Positions 27,474 through 34,154 of a stretch of DNA of 34,154 nt are shown here, in pieces; position 1 is the first letter of the stretch, and every line of letters starts with the position of its first letter. A model generated the notes under the pieces. That model was not told where the DNA came from, searched no databases, and saw only the letters and a program-made list of their open reading frames with translations. The stretch comes from Clostridia bacterium (GTDB taxonomy: Bacteria > Bacillota > Clostridia > Oscillospirales > CAG-272), in NCBI GenBank assembly GCA_017453305.1, contig JAFTKJ010000014.1, positions 1-34,154 on the forward strand, in the 5' to 3' direction. Both the position numbers and the translations under genes were made by a program.

Positions 27474-28469
27474 TCATCGCTTTCTAACGTAAGTACATTT
27501 TGGAAAATTGGGGCATCCGTAAAAGACGCCGTATTTTCCAATGCGTTGCTGTAGCTTTTTGCCACAGTGTGGGCAATAGCCGTGATCCGCAAATCCGTCG
27601 TAGCGCGATTCTGCACGATGATATTCAACACGGTTTGATTTTGCATAATTGCAGTTATGGCACAAGGTCTGCAAATTGTCAAAAGTCGATTTTCCCCCCT
27701 TAGAAATTGGGAAAATATGATCAATTTCCAGATCATTCGTGGAGCGACCACATTTACGGCAACGATAATGATCACGCCGATAAACTGCAAAACGCATTTT
27801 ATTTGTCACCTTTCCGCGTTCTACACGGCAGATCGCATCCCAAATTTCTCGGTCGCGGTAATAATCTCCCGACTTATCGTTAACTCGTGCAATAAGGTGT
27901 TTGATTTCGCCTTCGCCAAAGGATTGCTTTTTATACGCGCGAGAATACCCTTGCAAATTTGTCAACTGCAATACAACAAGTGCGCAAAATGCAGTTTTCG
28001 GTTTTAAAATCGATTCATCCACAAAACCTTTTTCCACTCTGCTTAATAGTGATCTGTTTTTTACCGTCACCTCGGCATCGTAATGTTCAAGCTGCATACA
28101 CCCTTGAATTTCCGTCATATATTGACGGAAGAGTCGCTTGTTATACTCGGCTGCCTCCATATCTGCGCGAAAATCCGTTGACTCCTGTGCCAACTTATAA
28201 ATCAAACAATCCTTTTCAGAGGTCATTCGGTAATAATTCTCGTTGTCATATGTAAAATCCAACCTGCCGGAAGATACGTAACGAAATGAATATTTTTGAT
28301 TCGTTTCCCTTATTTTTTTCAAGGTAACACTGTGTTCAAGAACAAATGCCCTATATTGTTTACCGGCAAAGAGGAGGTCAAGTGCGCCTGTCGAGAATAA
28401 CCAAGCAATCCCAAAAACAAGAACTGCCAAAGCAAACAACCCGCAAAGCAATTCAAAAACTAATGGCAT
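27474..28469 (-). CDS. Membrane-anchored HNH endonuclease with topoisomerase-type zinc finger
   Basis: This 331-residue protein has three parts. An N-terminal hydrophobic helix (about 4-26) should anchor it to the membrane. A middle region of unknown fold (about 35-220) follows. An HNH nuclease domain (about 225-280) has zinc cysteines C237, C240, C270 and C273, the catalytic pair D250-H251 in LEIDHIFP, and N265 in FDNLQTLCHNC. The C-terminus (297-331) is a topoisomerase I-type C4 zinc finger, CPHCG...YGCPNFPKC, that binds DNA. A plausible role is cutting DNA at the membrane, but the target is unknown. AGGGGGG lies upstream of the ATG; the gene is AT-richer than its upstream neighbour. Confidence 0.82.
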   Translation of the reverse strand: MPLVFELLCGLFALAVLVFGIAWLFSTGALDLLFAGKQYRAFVLEHSVTLKKIRETNQKYSFRYVSSGRLDFTYDNENYYRMTSEKDCLIYKLAQESTDFRADMEAAEYNKRLFRQYMTEIQGCMQLEHYDAEVTVKNRSLLSRVEKGFVDESILKPKTAFCALVVLQLTNLQGYSRAYKKQSFGEGEIKHLIARVNDKSGDYYRDREIWDAICRVERGKVTNKMRFAVYRRDHYRCRKCGRSTNDLEIDHIFPISKGGKSTFDNLQTLCHNCNYAKSNRVEYHRAESRYDGFADHGYCPHCGKKLQQRIGKYGVFYGCPNFPKCTYVRKR

Positions 28470-28497
28470 CCGAATCCCCCCTATTGTTCAATCTAAA

Positions 28498-29844
28498 TCA
28501 AGTCCGCCCCATTACTTTCTGCTCTGACTTCAAAATCTCCTCCACAGGCTTTCCCCATGCATCGCGCAGCTCCAAGCCCATGGCTGCGGCGATGGTGGGC
28601 GCGTGGTTGAGTACGTCACCGTAAGGAATCATCACGCCCGATTGGAAGGACGGCCCTTTTACAATCAGCGGCGGCTGCGGTCCCTTGCTCGGCTCGTGTC
28701 CGTGCGTACCGTGCATAAAGCGATAGCCGCCCGTCTCGCACTCCTTGCTCACGGGGCGTTGCAGGCGCTCACCAAACCCCGTATATCCGTCGGTTTCCAG
28801 CACAAAGGAAAAATCACCGAACAGACCGTACTGCTCGCGCGCCTCCTCTGCTGTATAAACGTGCTCAAATCCGCAGATCCCTTCGAACGCCATGTCGCAA
28901 AGGAGGGTGTAGATCTCTTTTTCAAGTTCCCGATCATCGGGACGGGAAAGGTAAACGTGTGCAGACGCTCCCGCACTCTTGACGTAGGCGTCCCACGTGT
29001 CAATTGTTCCGTCCTGCCTCAATTTGATGTACCCACGGTCTACCAACCACACGTTGGGAGAGACCACACGTGCGATGTTAATCTGTCCGTGGTCGCTCAA
29101 TACCACCCAATCGGTCGTATCGGTAATGCCTGCCTCCTCTGCAGCGTCCATCAGCATGCCGAGCCAGCGATCGGTGTTCTCCAGCGATTCGTGCACCAAT
29201 TTTCCAAATACGCCACTGTTGTGTCGCTTGCTATCTACGTCACCGGGGTGCACAAACGTCAGGTCGGGACGAAACCGCTTGATGATCTCGGCGGCGCAAT
29301 AGACCTGAAATTCATCGTATTCGGGGTGCTTGTTTTCGTAACCGTATTTTTCGATCCCGCGCGCAACGATATCCATCACGCACTCGCTCGTTCCAAGCTC
29401 GCGGTACACCGAAAGAGGATCGGATTCCCGCCCCTTGAAATGGTAATTCAACGCGTTGGGAACCAAATAATCGATCACACCGTCGCCCTGCGCGGTCAAA
29501 GGCCAGGTGCAGGATGCAGTTGTCAGCCCCTTGCGCTTTGCCGCATGAAAAAGGGTATCGCATTGAATTTGCCCCAGCTCGTTGTACCATTCACCCGTAT
29601 CGACGTCGGGGGCATTTGGCTTGAATACCGTGTTATTGATCACGCCCGTGACCCCTGCGGGAGCCCCCGTAATAAGCGTTGCGTGCACAGCATGCGTGAG
29701 CGACGGATAGATGGTTTTGACGCGCTCAATCATCGATGCACCATCCAAAAGGCGTGCAAAATTTGGGAGCGTGCGCGCGTATTCAAGATCCTCAAACACC
29801 ATCGCATCTACGCTGACCACAACCATATGTCTGTTTTGATCCAT
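28498..29844 (-). CDS. Nucleotide pyrophosphatase/alkaline phosphatase superfamily phosphodiesterase
   Basis: This 448-residue protein belongs to the type I phosphodiesterase/nucleotide pyrophosphatase branch of the alkaline phosphatase superfamily. Metal and nucleophile residues are visible: D13 in VVSVDAM, nucleophile T50 in YPSLTHAVHATLITG, HPGDVDSKRH (about 206-215), LSDHGQIN (about 257-264), and the late FMHGTHGHEP. No signal peptide is seen, so it should act in the cytosol, unlike the eukaryotic ectoenzymes. Substrates may be nucleotides or other phosphodiesters. It begins three bases after the acetyltransferase gene and ends 28 bases before the HNH gene, so all belong to one run. Confidence 0.87.
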   Translation of the reverse strand: MDQNRHMVVVSVDAMVFEDLEYARTLPNFARLLDGASMIERVKTIYPSLTHAVHATLITGAPAGVTGVINNTVFKPNAPDVDTGEWYNELGQIQCDTLFHAAKRKGLTTASCTWPLTAQGDGVIDYLVPNALNYHFKGRESDPLSVYRELGTSECVMDIVARGIEKYGYENKHPEYDEFQVYCAAEIIKRFRPDLTFVHPGDVDSKRHNSGVFGKLVHESLENTDRWLGMLMDAAEEAGITDTTDWVVLSDHGQINIARVVSPNVWLVDRGYIKLRQDGTIDTWDAYVKSAGASAHVYLSRPDDRELEKEIYTLLCDMAFEGICGFEHVYTAEEAREQYGLFGDFSFVLETDGYTGFGERLQRPVSKECETGGYRFMHGTHGHEPSKGPQPPLIVKGPSFQSGVMIPYGDVLNHAPTIAAAMGLELRDAWGKPVEEILKSEQKVMGRT

Positions 29845-29847
29845 AGA

Positions 29848-30441
29848 TTATCCCTCGTATTTTTTGTATTTATCCTTATCCGCCTCGGTGATCTTACGCA
29901 TCACGCGACAAGGCACGCCCACGGCGATCACCCCCGAGGGAATATCCTTGGTGACCACGCTCCCCGCACCGATGACCGTATTGTCGCCAATGGTCACGCC
30001 CGCCAGGACGATGGTGCCGGCACCGATCCACACGTTGTTGCCAACTGTGATGGGAAATGCCACCTCAAGACCGCGATTCCGTTGCTCCACGTCCAGCGCG
30101 TGCTCAGCGGTGGTAAAGGTGCAGTTGGGTGCGATAAAGACGTGATCTCCAAACGTCACCTTGGCACCGTCCAAAATCTGACAGTTGTGGTTGGCAAAAA
30201 AGTAGTCTCCCACCTCTGTATTGTAGCCATAGTCGCACCAAAACGGCGTGTTGACAACAACCTCTTTACCCATTTTTGCAAAGATCTTTTCCAAGATTGC
30301 CTTTTGCGCGGCGCGATCCGAGGGCTTGATCTGATTGAACTCATGGCAAAGATCGTTGCATTTGGCAACCTCTGCCTGTATTTCGGGATCGTAGTTGGGG
30401 TCGTAAAGAACGCCAAGATCCCGTTTTTCTTTTTCTGTCAT
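29848..30441 (-). CDS. Sugar O-acetyltransferase, maltose/galactoside acetyltransferase type
   Basis: This 197-residue protein has the maltose acetyltransferase N-terminal helix region (about 1-60) and a left-handed beta-helix of hexapeptide repeats (about 70-185). It shows NTPFWCDYG, the catalytic histidine in TTAEHALD (about H114), and the closing motif IPSGVIAVGVPCRV. It transfers acetyl from acetyl-CoA to a sugar hydroxyl; maltose, galactosides and other glycosides are family substrates. AAAGGAG lies nine bases upstream of the ATG. It is the first gene of the tight five-gene run down to 26305, and array repeat copy A lies upstream. Confidence 0.92.
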   Translation of the reverse strand: MTEKEKRDLGVLYDPNYDPEIQAEVAKCNDLCHEFNQIKPSDRAAQKAILEKIFAKMGKEVVVNTPFWCDYGYNTEVGDYFFANHNCQILDGAKVTFGDHVFIAPNCTFTTAEHALDVEQRNRGLEVAFPITVGNNVWIGAGTIVLAGVTIGDNTVIGAGSVVTKDIPSGVIAVGVPCRVMRKITEADKDKYKKYEG

Positions 30442-30525
30442 GTCGATTGCTCCTTTGTGATGTATGATGGAGATTTGCGATTGCGCAATTCATTGTCGAG
30501 TTATCGTGTGAGACACACGACATAT

Positions 30526-30600
30526 TCGACGTGGGTCATAAGACCAAAAGGTATATTTTTATGCCAAAAACAGGGGTTGTAACGACAAAAGGTATATTTA
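30526..30600 (-). repeat. Array repeat copy A
   Basis: About 75 bases containing two AAATATACCTTTTG direct repeats on the minus strand and a GGTC-TTAT-GACC mini-hairpin. The stop codon of the gene at 30598 overlaps its 5' end. It differs from copy C at four positions over 74 bases. It occupies the gap to the acetyltransferase gene. Confidence 0.85.
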
Positions 30601-31110
30601 CTTCCCGCGATTTTTCTTATAGTTAACAACAAACAAAAGTGCGCCTACCGATATTGAGAGTGCCATAATCGTTGGACCAACAATATGTGCGGTCTTTTCG
30701 TTTTTGCTATATTCATTCAAAACATCGTTGAGTGATAAATATGTTTCACCGTTATATTCAAGGGCGCATATTTTTCTTAATTCACCACTTTTTTCAAAAT
30801 AAGTAATCGTAAGTTCTTTGCCTATCTGTAGCTCTTCAAATAATCTTCTATCAATGTTGTCATAGCATATTCCTGTTGCCTCAAAGTAAGAATTATCTTC
30901 AAATCGCACATCGAAGTAAGAACCTTTAGAATTTCCCAAAATATTATCGTACCATTTCTCATCGTACTGATTGAATTTAGACACAACACCTGTTTGCTGT
31001 TTTAATTCCATCGGCTGTTGATATGAGAAAGTGAATATTAAACTAAGCACTAAAACAAGCAACAGCGCAATTGCAATTAAAATGTTAAAGGCTACAAATC
31101 TGTTTTTCAT
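30598..31110 (-). CDS. Hypothetical protein with two terminal membrane helices
   Basis: This 170-residue protein is of unknown family. A hydrophobic helix near residues 8-29 and another near 143-163 flank a beta-rich domain containing SYFDVRFEDNSYFEATG and ELTITYFEKSGELR. The domain would face the outside if the N-terminus is cytoplasmic. It ends in a basic KKNRGK tail. AAGGAG precedes the ATG and lies at the edge of array repeat copy B. Its stop codon TAA abuts copy A. Strong AT bias matches the other array genes. No function can be assigned. Confidence 0.72.
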   Translation of the reverse strand: MKNRFVAFNILIAIALLLVLVLSLIFTFSYQQPMELKQQTGVVSKFNQYDEKWYDNILGNSKGSYFDVRFEDNSYFEATGICYDNIDRRLFEELQIGKELTITYFEKSGELRKICALEYNGETYLSLNDVLNEYSKNEKTAHIVGPTIMALSISVGALLFVVNYKKNRGK

Positions 31111-31114
31111 AAGA

Positions 31115-31297
31115 CTCCTTTCGACATGCTATACTAAACTGCTGTAAAATGAACTTTTGAATCTTGCTCAAAAATCACTTTTGTCCAAATTCACTTTTTG
31201 GCTCATTCCCTCGTCAGAAAAACCAAACTTTCAGTGTGGGGCATAAGGTCAAAAAGTATATTTTTATGTCAAAAATAGGGATTGTGAAAGCAAAAAG
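31115..31297 (-). repeat. Array repeat copy B (long form)
   Basis: This 183-base copy is identical to copy D (32597-32779) at 177 positions with no gaps. On the minus strand it runs from just after the stop of the gene at 31300 to the ribosome binding site of the gene at 31110, so it forms the whole intergenic region. It includes a TAGTATA-type -10-like sequence near its 3' end. Confidence 0.92.
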
Positions 31298-31299
31298 TC

Positions 31300-31749
31300 T
31301 CACTTTTCAATCTCTCCCGACCAAAAAGTGCGCAGAAATGCAAGATTTCTTTTGTTTTTTCGAAAACAAATATAACTGTCTTTCCTAAGGCGATCAAATT
31401 TATGTATGCTACTATCTATCAAATACACAAAATCGCCCTCACGCCAAGCATACTGAATCTTTACTTTTCCAATGGATTCAATAGGACATTCTTTATAAAA
31501 GCCGCATATCAATCCTTTACGTTTCACAACACCGTCTTCAATCCAAACCACGCATGCTGATCTATTCAAAAACCATAAGAAAAAGCAGGAAAGAAAAAGA
31601 AACACACAAAAGGCCAAATATCCCGATCCCTTTTCCTCAACAAAGCCGAATATCTCAAATCCAATGGCAATAATCGAAATTGCGAAAAAAAGAATACACC
31701 AAAAGGATATTATTAAAGCAAGCAAACTTGAAGAAATAATTTTTTTCAT
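31300..31749 (-). CDS. Hypothetical membrane protein, possible bacterial PH-like domain
   Basis: This 149-residue protein has two hydrophobic segments (about 5-33 and 41-62) followed by a beta-rich cytoplasmic domain with CVVWIEDGVVKRKGLICGFY and a CPIESIGKV stretch. That layout resembles membrane proteins with a bacterial pleckstrin-like domain, but the assignment is tentative. I chose the ATG at 31749, with AAGGAGGTGACACA directly upstream; the longer frame to 31905 runs through array copy C. The stop TGA lies three bases before array copy B. AT-rich. No function can be assigned. Confidence 0.68.
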   Translation of the reverse strand: MKKIISSSLLALIISFWCILFFAISIIAIGFEIFGFVEEKGSGYLAFCVFLFLSCFFLWFLNRSACVVWIEDGVVKRKGLICGFYKECPIESIGKVKIQYAWREGDFVYLIDSSIHKFDRLRKDSYICFRKNKRNLAFLRTFWSGEIEK

Positions 31750-31781
31750 TGTGTCACCTCCTTGTGAGACAAATAACACTC

Positions 31782-31856
31782 TCGACGTGGGGCATAAGCC
31801 CAAAAGGTATATTTTTATGCCAAAAACAGGGGTTGTAAAGCCAAAAGGTATATTTT
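31782..31856 (-). repeat. Array repeat copy C (short form)
   Basis: About 75 bases, nearly identical to copy A. It starts six bases after the stop of the gene at 31863 on the minus strand. The mini-hairpin here is GGGC-TTAT-GCCC, a base-pair-preserving change from GGTC-TTAT-GACC in copy A. Confidence 0.85.
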
Positions 31857-31862
31857 CGATGC

Positions 31863-32591
31863 TCAAATCTCTTGTTTTTCTTTCAAATCCTTGCTTAAAT
31901 TGCAATCAATCAGTCGAAACAGTCTGTGCGTGGAAACAAATAGGCAGATAAATACGATCAGAAGTGCCAACATAACCACACAACAAAATGACATTCCGAT
32001 CACACCGAACAAGTCGAAAGGTGAAAATTGGTTGACAAGAGTAGCTACCATTAAAACGGTTAAAGCGGTAATGATAGCAAACAAAACCACGTAGGCGGGA
32101 TAATGATATAACCGAAATTCTTTTTTGAACAATGCTTGATTATATTCGGAGTAAAGTACCTCGTCGGTCGTTTTTTCACCAACAACCTCGATGTCGGGAT
32201 CAGAAAACTGTCTTGTAGCCTTATCGTACTTAGGAGAAATAAATTTAAGAACAACATTTTCTGTTGGTGCAATTTTAAAAGTCTTTTTCAAATCAAAAGG
32301 TTTTGCAGCGTAGAAAAATTTATGTATTCCAATTCCGTTATCATTGTCCGCAAAAAATATGATTGGAGAAAGCAAGAAGAAAAACAAGTATGCAAAGAAA
32401 CGACCAATAGGATTTTTAATTTGTTGTATATCGATCCTTTTATATTCAACCTGAACCTCGATTTTATCGATGTTGGGAATATCAAAAAAGGTTTGCCTTT
32501 CCTGCGTGGTCAATTCTTTTGTCTCTCCATTTACAGACACAGCCAAAGTGTCCTCAAATTCTTTGTTTGCAAGCGTGAAAGTTAATTTCAT
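31863..32591 (-). CDS. Hypothetical multi-domain membrane protein
   Basis: This 242-residue protein is of unknown family. It has an N-terminal beta-rich domain (about 1-58), one hydrophobic helix near 62-82, a middle soluble segment (about 85-160) and two further helices near 166-190 and 195-220. The tail KDLKEKQEI is charged. AAGGAG precedes the ATG at the end of array copy D; the stop lies just before copy C. Strong AT bias and the same flanking repeats as its neighbours mark it as part of the array. No function can be assigned. Confidence 0.72.
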   Translation of the reverse strand: MKLTFTLANKEFEDTLAVSVNGETKELTTQERQTFFDIPNIDKIEVQVEYKRIDIQQIKNPIGRFFAYLFFFLLSPIIFFADNDNGIGIHKFFYAAKPFDLKKTFKIAPTENVVLKFISPKYDKATRQFSDPDIEVVGEKTTDEVLYSEYNQALFKKEFRLYHYPAYVVLFAIITALTVLMVATLVNQFSPFDLFGVIGMSFCCVVMLALLIVFICLFVSTHRLFRLIDCNLSKDLKEKQEI

Positions 32592-32596
32592 TGATT

Positions 32597-32779
32597 CTCC
32601 TTTCGATATGTTATACTAAACTGCTGTAAAATGAACTTTTGAATCTTGCTCAAAAATCACTTTTGTCCAAATTCACTTTTTGGCTCATTCCCTCGTCAGA
32701 AAAACCAAACTTTCAATGTGGGGCATAAGGTCAAAAAGTATATTTTTATGCCAAAAATGGGGGTTGTGAAAGCAAAAAG
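32597..32779 (-). repeat. Array repeat copy D (long form)
   Basis: 177 of 183 positions identical to copy B, without gaps. It extends from the 3' end of the gene at 32787 to the ribosome binding site of the gene at 32591. Its end, GGCATAAAATATACC on the minus strand, contains the stop codon of the upstream gene. Confidence 0.92.
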
Positions 32780-32786
32780 GTATATT

Positions 32787-33743
32787 TTATGCCAGCATTG
32801 CTGCGACGATAACAGACAAGAATGCGATTATAAAAGTACCTAGTTCACAAAGCTTCCAATAATCAAACATCGTTTGTTCGTCCTTTGTGAGACGAATATG
32901 ATCAAGCATATTCCATGTAACGATGGTGGATATAATAAAATGAATTGCAAGCGGCAAAATGCCTATGCAAAGAATGCCATTCAGCAAAAGCCCAAAAACA
33001 ATATCTAAAATGGCATAAATCACATGAATGATCGAGGTAATCCGAAAGTATTTCAGAATAAACCTTGCTTTGCGATTTTCTATTACGATTGAATGCTTTG
33101 AAGGCTGTATAGCTTCCTGCGTTTTTCGATACTCTTTCCGTTTTTCAAGAAAAATGATAGTTCCCATTCCAATAGCACCGACAAACGATACACACCAGCA
33201 AACACCAAAATTAAATACCCAGTACCACCACGGACGGGCAACGACTGTAGTCAGTGTCCCATCTGCTTGCGCCTTGTAGACTTGATATGTATCAAAATAA
33301 AATTCGCCGTCTTGGAATTCGTCCGTATATTCGTTTTCCCAATCGTAAATCAAATCAATATCATCTGATTTTTTCTTTTCAACAAAAGTTCCGTTTGATG
33401 AATCATAAATGTAAACATCAGCAGAATTATATACAATGAGTTGATTATTGGAAAGCTCAAAGTACACATTTCTTAAATACGGCGTCGATACCGCCCAAAG
33501 AAATCGGCCTTCTTCAGAATAGACATTTACATAGGAGGCATCATTATAGCATACATAAATTTGATGTAGATCTTCATCATGTAAAACCGTAGCAATTTCG
33601 TCTGGGGCAAACAGTTCTACCTGCACTTTTTGATAGTTTTCGTTATCTCGTGTGCATATTGATCTGCCTATCAAACCGATAGCAATCCCAGTGAGAAATA
33701 TCAGTATGAAAACAACAAATAAAATTCTTTTGGTACTTGTCAT
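32787..33743 (-). CDS. Hypothetical membrane protein with extracytoplasmic beta-rich domain
   Basis: This 318-residue protein has an N-terminal anchor (about 7-27) and a roughly 140-residue beta-rich region. Repeated short strands in that region (QIYVCYND, SYVNVYSEEG, NQLIVYNSADVYIYD) look like part of a propeller or PQQ-type sheet. Membrane segments follow near 172-200 and 232-317. The external part is too short for a full propeller, so the fold is uncertain. AAAGGAGGTG lies upstream of the ATG. Partial repeat copy E is upstream and copy D starts at its stop. AT-rich like the rest of the array. Function unknown. Confidence 0.72.
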   Translation of the reverse strand: MTSTKRILFVVFILIFLTGIAIGLIGRSICTRDNENYQKVQVELFAPDEIATVLHDEDLHQIYVCYNDASYVNVYSEEGRFLWAVSTPYLRNVYFELSNNQLIVYNSADVYIYDSSNGTFVEKKKSDDIDLIYDWENEYTDEFQDGEFYFDTYQVYKAQADGTLTTVVARPWWYWVFNFGVCWCVSFVGAIGMGTIIFLEKRKEYRKTQEAIQPSKHSIVIENRKARFILKYFRITSIIHVIYAILDIVFGLLLNGILCIGILPLAIHFIISTIVTWNMLDHIRLTKDEQTMFDYWKLCELGTFIIAFLSVIVAAMLA

Positions 33744-33770
33744 AGGCCTTACACCTCCTTTATAGAAACT

Positions 33771-33835
33771 TCGATATGTTATCCTAAACTGCTGTAAATT
33801 GTATTTTCAAGTTTCGCTCAAAACGCACTTTTTCC
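33771..33835 (-). repeat. Array repeat copy E (partial, diverged)
   Basis: The TCGATATGTTATCCTAAACT segment and the following GCTGTAAA, TTTTCAAG and CGCTCAAAA blocks match the part of copies B and D nearest the next gene's start. The outer part with the AAATATACC repeats is missing. It abuts the stop of the four-helix-bundle gene. Confidence 0.7.
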
Positions 33836-33836
33836 C

Positions 33837-34154
33837 TTATGCGTTCCCCTTTGCGGTGGTGATAGAGGCGATGAGTCTGCGCCGTATTGAACCGCATTTG
33901 TTGCGTAAATCCTTGTAGGTTATTTCTGTTATTTTACCTTTTCTAAAAATCAGTTCAAGCCAATATTCGGTTTCCGAACACTCTTTTAAGGAGATTTCCA
34001 ATTCATTTATAAAATCGGCTTTGCTCTGTGCGTATTTTGCTTCGTGGATATTTGCTCCAATCGATGATGAAGAACGGACTATTTGATTGATGTAAACAGA
34101 GCAACCCTTGATTTCATCGCACAAATCGGATATTTGGATTGCAAATTCTATAGC
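33837..34154 (-). CDS. Four helix bundle protein (S23/IVP-like), truncated by window edge
   Basis: The visible 105 residues carry the hallmark of the 23S rRNA intervening-sequence protein family: IVRSSSSIGANIHEAKYAQSKADF followed by LKECSETEYWLELI. The frame runs open to the last base of the window (AIEFAIQISDL...), so the true start lies beyond it. The family forms small homo-oligomeric four-helix bundles, often found near mobile or hypervariable loci; its biochemical role is unknown. It lies immediately upstream of array copy E and could mark the array boundary. Confidence 0.88.
   Translation of the reverse strand, partial: AIEFAIQISDLCDEIKGCSVYINQIVRSSSSIGANIHEAKYAQSKADFINELEISLKECSETEYWLELIFRKGKITEITYKDLRNKCGSIRRRLIASITTAKGNA

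Follow-up and report, generated by a model that had tools for sequence, protein, structure and literature searches.

We analysed a stretch of 34,154 nucleotides (the window) from the draft genome of a Clostridia bacterium (Oscillospirales, CAG-272; contig JAFTKJ010000014.1), which ends in an array of minus-strand genes separated by repeats. We propose that each of these genes is a separate cassette and that a trans-acting recombinase, most likely a serine integrase specific for rlmD, inserts such cassettes at the 3′ end of this 23S rRNA methyltransferase gene; we give this reading a probability of about 0.6. Sequence comparison shows the rlmD address, the identity of a short repeat core with the end of that gene, the coding constraint on the core, a 5′ junction within it, and the exchange of cassettes between genomes and families.

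The repeats and their rlmD core

An earlier note on this DNA had described repeat copies A to E as members of one family. The repeats are real and their coordinates were right, but we found two elements instead of one. R1 (~93 bp) was detected with an nhmmer profile in copies A, B, C, and D and sits at gene 3′ ends, and R2 (~66 bp) is present in copies B, D, and E and sits just ahead of gene starts. The two long copies, B (31115-31297) and D (32597-32779), are back-to-back composites of R1 and R2, and copy E is R2 alone. The long copies do lie 1482 bp apart with 177/183 identical positions (96.7%, ungapped), and they reach the next ribosome binding site, while gene stop codons fall in or adjoin the repeats, as the note had reported. 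A pattern of 27 bp taken from the left side of R1 occurred four times in the window, allowing up to three mismatches, vs. a mean of 0.00 in 100 shuffles. In the window's own draft genome, sequence search and R1 profile alike gave four R1 matches, all at the array; two further matches, of 15 and 17 bp, were at chance level (E 0.7 and 1.4).

R1 closes with a core of ~33 bp that encodes the peptide HVESVVCLTRK-stop, and R1 positions 65-93 match the 3′ end of rlmD/rumA. In relatives, the array starts behind a gene for a ~460-aa RumA/RlmD-type 23S rRNA (uracil-5-)methyltransferase (PF05958). MnmE, guessed as the target from protein length, was wrong, since Pfam gives the RumA/RlmD type. Among 142 R1 loci, which are not all independent because some represent the same contigs (e.g., L033 = L111, L218 = L203, and L219 = L164), 72 had an rlmD-family gene on the same strand: in 70 it lies no more than 2.8 kb ahead of the first element, and in two it lies inside the array. 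The others comprised five loci from three genomes with a serine integrase, 64 that were cut off within 2.5 kb, and a single one (L139) with neither.

For the window itself, the start of another contig of the same genome (G000:C41) overlaps the right end exactly, over 141 bases inside the IVP gene described below, and an rlmD reading frame ends at base 416 of that contig, ~0.3 kb past the overlap. Such an exact overlap is typical of an assembler branch, so the adjacency of window and rlmD is very likely rather than proven. The earlier note had advised looking for an integrase or recombinase beyond position 34154; what follows there is very likely no integrase but the remainder of the IVP gene and then rlmD.

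The core reads as RlmD coding sequence. We assembled 177 R1 cores after removing 20 recognised rlmD ends, with six partial hits kept, some of which are perhaps diverged rlmD ends. No core had a stop in the RlmD frame (0/177), vs. 95 and 52 with stops in the other two frames, and a stop followed within four codons of core codon 9 in 118/177 in the RlmD frame vs. 11 and 32. Restricted to full-length copies, the early stop was found in 93/141 vs. 11 and 26. Mismatches by codon position were 0.123/0.102/0.355, concentrated at the third position, and the serine of core codon 4 is encoded by both AGY and TCN codons. The open RlmD frame and the third-position changes are what we would expect if each R1 core was, or can become, the end of an rlmD gene. 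The R1 core and the rlmD end of one locus were only a little more alike (0.775, 29 pairs) than cores and rlmD ends from different loci (0.734).

Junctions point to the same core. Eleven families of open reading frames (ORFs) were found directly after both rlmD and R1 cores; we judged seven to be real genes and four to be non-coding spacer ORFs. In nine hand-picked pairs from six of the seven gene families, identity was 0.24 to the left of the core (background 0.23), 0.83 over core nucleotides 1-15 (0.77), 0.90 over nucleotides 16-33 (0.68), and 0.87 over the next 30 nucleotides (0.30). This jump in identity at the core places the 5′ junction inside its first part.

Cassettes have also moved between families. 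A 108-aa cassette is identical at 308/327 nucleotides (~94%) between G007, from the genus of the window, and G575, from another family. The RlmD proteins of the two genomes share 42% identity. In G575 the cassette stands behind an RlmD paralog and in G007 behind an R1, and the sequences to the left of the core are unrelated. One cross-family pair shares ~45 bp of the left half of R1. Besides, two adjacent cassettes are common to L162 and L167, with different surrounding neighbours.

Some rlmD regions showed further features. Two loci (L144 and L232) have two RumA-family paralogs in a row, each with cassettes, and two others (L126 and L241) have two close RumA paralogs, with R1 found at one of the two only. 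A hairpin-rich stretch lies behind rlmD in L052:1-416 (G000:C41) and in L057, L059, and L062; it precedes the IVP gene in L052 and L057, and similar stretches follow some R1 cores. Together, its start and the 3′ end of rlmD make up a palindrome (such as CGTCGTGTG-TCT-CACACGACG), and the stretch looks like an IVP-coding element preferring the same core.

Cassettes across genomes and in the window

The repeat is tied to gene ends far outside the window. A BLAST search with copy D matched 15/35 genomes of the genus; in one of the 15 (G004) the profiles found R2 only, and one more genome (G014) was added by the R1 profile. Within the family, the R1 profile was positive in 67/295 genomes, spread over 26/71 genera, and in an order-wide draw it was positive in 19/394 genomes, seven of them in four other families. 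Scanning a genome collection with the R1 pattern returned 113 stretches, 112 of which came from metagenome-assembled genomes titled Clostridia, Clostridiales, or Oscillospiraceae, many of them from ruminant hindgut, judging by isolate names. The single archaeal stretch (L156) was a chance match without an R1 profile hit and was dropped. We rejected carriage by phages or plasmids, as no R1 was found in viral_contigs (exact pattern), plasmids, or phages.

The window and 150 loci together contained 223 unique R1 and 109 unique R2 matches, some rlmD 3′ ends included. A same-strand stop codon lay within 15 nucleotides of the R1 start in 100/145 full copies (shifted control 103/2189), and a start codon lay 5-30 nucleotides beyond R2 in 78/104 copies (control 60/1619). 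Every locus had hits on one strand, with no mixed-strand locus. The commonest order was R2 - gene - R1, where the next element after R2 was R1 93 times and another R2 six times, and this order was regular across five units in L167/L227. The [gene + 3′ repeat] cassette layout that the earlier note had suggested is supported across many loci. Gene content differs between relatives, and the repeat keeps to the 3′ ends of genes and to a single address in the chromosome; neither of the outcomes that the note had named as refuting its reading, the same gene order across distant relatives or a randomly scattered repeat, was found.

On the minus strand, the window's array runs IVP gene - R2 - P4 - R1 R2 - P3 - R1 - P2 - R1 R2 - P1 - R1 - acetyltransferase gene. 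The first gene (33837..34154) encodes a four-helix-bundle/23S rRNA IVP protein (PF05635, E 2.2e-21) and is truncated at the contig end. R2 copy E (33771..33832, nhmmer E 1.7e-15) is the 5′ element of the next cassette, whose gene P4 (32787..33743, 318 aa) has a homolog, 46% identical (alignment A1), that stands first behind rlmD in G020 (L035). R1 copy D (32688..32783), with the core at 32688-32720 (HIESLVFLTRE-stop in the RlmD frame), and R2 copy D (32603..32668) then separate P4 from P3 (31863..32591, 242 aa), which has a 51% identical homolog two genes after an R1 in a genome of another family (L236). R1 copy C (31757..31852) has its core at 31757-31789 (HVESVICLTRR-stop), and its final codons partly coincide with the ribosome binding site that serves P2 (31300..31749, 149 aa). 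In G002, a homolog of P2 (L038:8642-9094) likewise follows an R1 core directly and is near-identical from the core onward. R1 copy B (31206..31301; core 31206-31238, HTESLVFLTRE-stop) and R2 copy B (31121..31186) precede P1 (30598..31110, 170 aa). The last site of the array is R1 copy A (30501..30596; core 30501-30533, HVEYVVCLTR-stop), and the acetyltransferase gene beyond it (29848-30441) is the chromosomal flank. All elements from the IVP gene to copy A are on the minus strand. P1-P4 are of unknown function, with no Pfam match above the curated cut-off, and the four genes are AT-rich as noted before, with a guanine-cytosine (GC) content of 0.335-0.368 vs. 0.501 for window bases 1-30000.

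We considered other roles for both elements. R1 (e.g., window:31761-31852) holds a direct repeat, ATACCTTTTGG, with copies 41 bp apart; variable triplets stand directly after each copy, and the first unit is missing from some R1 copies. RNAalifold found 0 consensus pairs across 64 R1 copies, and R1 as an attC-like site or RNA structure was rejected; Rfam gave nothing up to E 1 within 28000-34154. The palindrome of R2 pairs in 91.2% of cells, yet R2 was no better than shuffled alignments (pairing 149/500, covariation 239/500), and we discarded it as a structured RNA. As a sigma-70 promoter it was unsupported, with 15 promoter-like sites in 30400-34154 vs. 12.3 expected. TATAAC is kept in most R2 copies, which precede start codons, and a promoter or operator role would be only a guess.

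The cargo is diverse. As the earlier note had proposed, we compared gene content between relatives, and it differs: the 147 non-identical cassette ORFs, of which six are probably spurious, fall into 77 families, with 41 singletons. The proteins are short (median 153 aa over 155), and the genes mostly have a GC content of ~0.30-0.47 within loci of 0.40-0.55. A hydrophobic, possibly transmembrane stretch was present in only 48/147 proteins, so the description as a membrane-protein array does not hold in general. Family scans were run on 141 proteins, with P2 taken from a shorter start, after removal of six ORFs in or beside rlmD ends (among them L032:13736-14014, L125:4952-5113, and L157:6648-6842), all six of which are still counted in the 147. 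Pfam recognised 43 families, each in at most four proteins (GIY-YIG in four, GDSL in three, and GDPD, GH43, IVP, HNH, and others in two). Immunity families were absent among the 25 of 43 Pfam and 25 of 70 NCBIfam families listed, and many proteins match nothing. A defence function was rejected, with PADLOC matches in four families, one of the 141 proteins each. The NCBIfam IscB and Cas9d models match one cassette protein each, and GIY-YIG domains occur in four; from these matches, homing-type nucleases may be hitch-hiking in cassettes.

Mechanism, enzyme, and rival explanations

In the mechanism that we propose, a unit would be a single gene, in many cases closely preceded by R2; a core encoding the RlmD C-terminus and stop would form its 5′ boundary, and an R1 that itself ends in another core would form its 3′ boundary. 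Site-specific recombination within the core, in its first ~15 nucleotides around CAYGTNGA, would place the cassette behind rlmD. The incoming core would restore the end of rlmD, the old end would be shifted downstream, where it becomes the core of the R1 just added, and repeated insertion would build the array. Exchange between two R1 copies, or between rlmD and R1, could remove or shuffle units; such reversibility and a circular intermediate are parts of the model that we infer. The recombinase would act in trans and would most likely be a large serine recombinase of mobile elements that integrate at rlmD/rumA, with its own gene ending in the core after integration. R1 and R2 are probably altered by gene conversion as well.

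An rlmD-specific serine integrase is the most likely enzyme, inferred from the following matches rather than demonstrated. We searched 151 loci, the window and some loci without an array included, with tblastn (E 1e-4). The queries were 20 seeds for tyrosine recombinases, which did not include IntI, and 16 ORFs taken from four loci with serine recombinases. In L164 and L203, a 558-aa large serine recombinase stands at the array head, and in L203 the final integrase codons are the core (..LDNDTQVESLVCLTRK-stop). Arrays in three genomes (L203/L218, L164/L219, and L220) begin with an rlmD-type serine integrase. Its relatives of at least 77% identity (8/10 matches) are alike to about TQVE and then have genome-specific ends, as in RlmD. 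Proteins with PF07508 were present in 23/35 genomes of the genus, none of them on an array-bearing contig when compared by eye. The gene rumA is a known target of single serine integrases of streptococcal integrative and conjugative elements (ICEs), which swap its 3′ end and have their attachment site inside the integrase gene (PMC4701971), and CTn5 of C. difficile can move into rumA (PMC4320837). The genome-specific 3′ ends of the integrase seen here match the published behaviour of rumA-specific serine integrases in streptococcal ICEs (PMC4701971).

Several observations weigh against this mechanism. The recombinase seeds matched only 2/151 loci (L164 and L203), both with an ICE-type serine integrase. 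The rlmD-type integrase was rare, with 9/295 genomes of the family (3/67 R1-positive and 6/228 R1-negative), so the supply of enzyme would be occasional. By eye, the left half of R1 resembles the attP half of the integrase only weakly, and for a classical serine integrase, R1 (P-B′ form) would have to play the part of attP, an unusual arrangement. Near-identical genes stay alike up to and including the stop codon and ATATACCTTTTG and are followed, right after CTTTTGG, by different R1 variants; R2, too, is a mosaic where its flanks are otherwise identical. Identity of the R1 left half was 0.779 within cassette families (57 pairs) and 0.782 between them (2964 pairs). A cassette-specific left half was ruled out over the 57 same-family pairs, a result that counts against the simplest model. 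Since the left half of R1 does not track the gene and R2 is mosaic, we read gene conversion as an additional process, which probably acts on both elements on top of cassette movement.

These same observations invite a reading in which RecA-dependent homologous recombination between R1 and R2 of neighbouring and incoming arrays does the work, with no site-specific enzyme acting now and the core merely a conserved patch. It would account for elements that change independently of the flanking genes, for long copies identical at 177/183 positions in the window, and for the near absence of linked recombinases. We consider it unlikely, because it leaves unexplained why all 177 cores are open in the RlmD frame, most with an early stop, and why arrays pair with rlmD wherever the upstream sequence suffices, bar the integrase loci and L139. 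Nor does it explain why rlmD and R1 junction contexts share almost nothing to the left of the core, or how one cassette crossed families without similarity there. The exchange by homologous recombination that the earlier note had raised probably does happen within R1 and R2, but it does not explain the rlmD core.

Insertion by an rlmD-specific enzyme was also weighed against two other origins. The units could be remnants of ordinary insertions of ICEs or integrative and mobilizable elements at rlmD, accreted in tandem and decayed, with no dedicated cassette system. The gene, rlmD/rumA, is a known ICE target (PMC4701971, PMC4320837), and the rlmD-type integrase does head three arrays, but decay sits poorly with units that are mostly one short gene with R1 and often R2, and that recur in many genomes with different neighbours and moved singly between families; we find this improbable. 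Very improbable, in our view, is a tyrosine recombinase acting in trans, either a host Xer enzyme or a ~280-aa family (L071, L073-L075, and L077-L084) with a conserved VFPHNLRHLFA. The core has imperfect inverted arms by eye, and this family made up 12/20 of the tyrosine-recombinase loci fetched, a biased sample taken from array-bearing genomes only. Across the 295 genomes of the family, it occurred in 87 and R1 in 67, with both in 18 where ~20 would be expected, so there was no association and we rejected it as the cassette integrase. It was missing from three array-bearing genomes (G012, G019, and G021) and was linked to 0/151 loci.

Comparison with known systems

Integrons are arrays of co-oriented, mostly single-gene, low-GC units behind a fixed site, each ending in a repeat that is the recombination site. 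Their attC sites fold into imperfect hairpins, and a neighbouring tyrosine recombinase, IntI, excises cassettes as circles. The rlmD arrays are alike in that genes of largely unknown function, mostly one per unit and low in GC, line up in one orientation behind a single chromosomal site, with the repeat at the gene 3′ end and no locus of mixed strands. They differ in that a housekeeping gene provides the fixed site with its 3′ end, and each site carries the end codons of that gene, in that R1 lacks an attC-like consensus fold, and in that no integron integrase was linked in the 151 loci searched with tyrosine seeds that did not include IntI. Besides, no integron-integrase Pfam family was seen among the 25 of 43 families listed for the 141 cassette proteins.

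The rAID arrays of Bacteroidales (PMC12247911) likewise occur in gut bacteria, and there, too, short, low-GC genes run in one direction with conserved motifs between them. They have a tyrosine recombinase and orphan immunity genes, whereas the rlmD arrays have no such recombinase linked in the 151 loci searched, carry mixed cargo, and reside in Clostridia. Thus, lacking an attC-like fold in R1 and almost any linked recombinase, the rlmD arrays are neither integrons nor rAID arrays.

The staphylococcal cassette chromosome mec and the Enterococcus cassette chromosome likewise insert where a methyltransferase gene ends, at the 3′ end of rlmH, with direct repeats that contain attachment sites, and they use large serine recombinases (PMC6222049). 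Their junction repeats, too, carry the end of the target gene, which is rlmD here. They are large islands with their own ccr genes, in contrast to units of ~0.4-1.5 kb without a recombinase gene. The rumA-specific serine-integrase ICEs share the target gene and the kind of 3′-end swap, and they carry integrase and conjugation genes (PMC4701971, PMC4320837); the cassettes carry no integrase. An integrase with a swapped rumA 3′ end was nevertheless present at 5/142 loci, in three genomes. Another type of mobile unit, the pdif modules mobilised by Xer enzymes, is marked by 28-bp XerC/XerD sites. Searches of an open-access library listed no title about cassette arrays at rlmD/rumA, which says little about subscription journals. 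Several arrays, including the one in the window, run up to the end of a contig, and short-read assemblies will therefore undercount them.

Judged by these comparisons, the rlmD arrays belong to the cassette-array kind. In anatomy they resemble a working integron or a small-scale staphylococcal cassette chromosome, but they fail tested defining features of integrons, rAID arrays, and staphylococcal cassette chromosomes. We tentatively suggest, at somewhat less than even odds, that they represent an undescribed gene-capture platform of Clostridia with serine-recombinase chemistry, a self-repairing target, and an enzyme supplied in trans by rlmD-targeting ICEs. If this is true, each cassette brings a working rlmD 3′ end, so that repeated insertion spares the housekeeping gene, and single genes spread between bacterial families. 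The arrays would then be a new reservoir of exchangeable genes, most of them of unknown function, and reading the core in the rlmD frame makes the idea checkable in any genome. Set beside integrons, the textbook case of gene capture, they would be an independent platform of similar layout in gut Clostridia, with another address and probably another class of enzyme, and a natural experiment on the origins of such systems.

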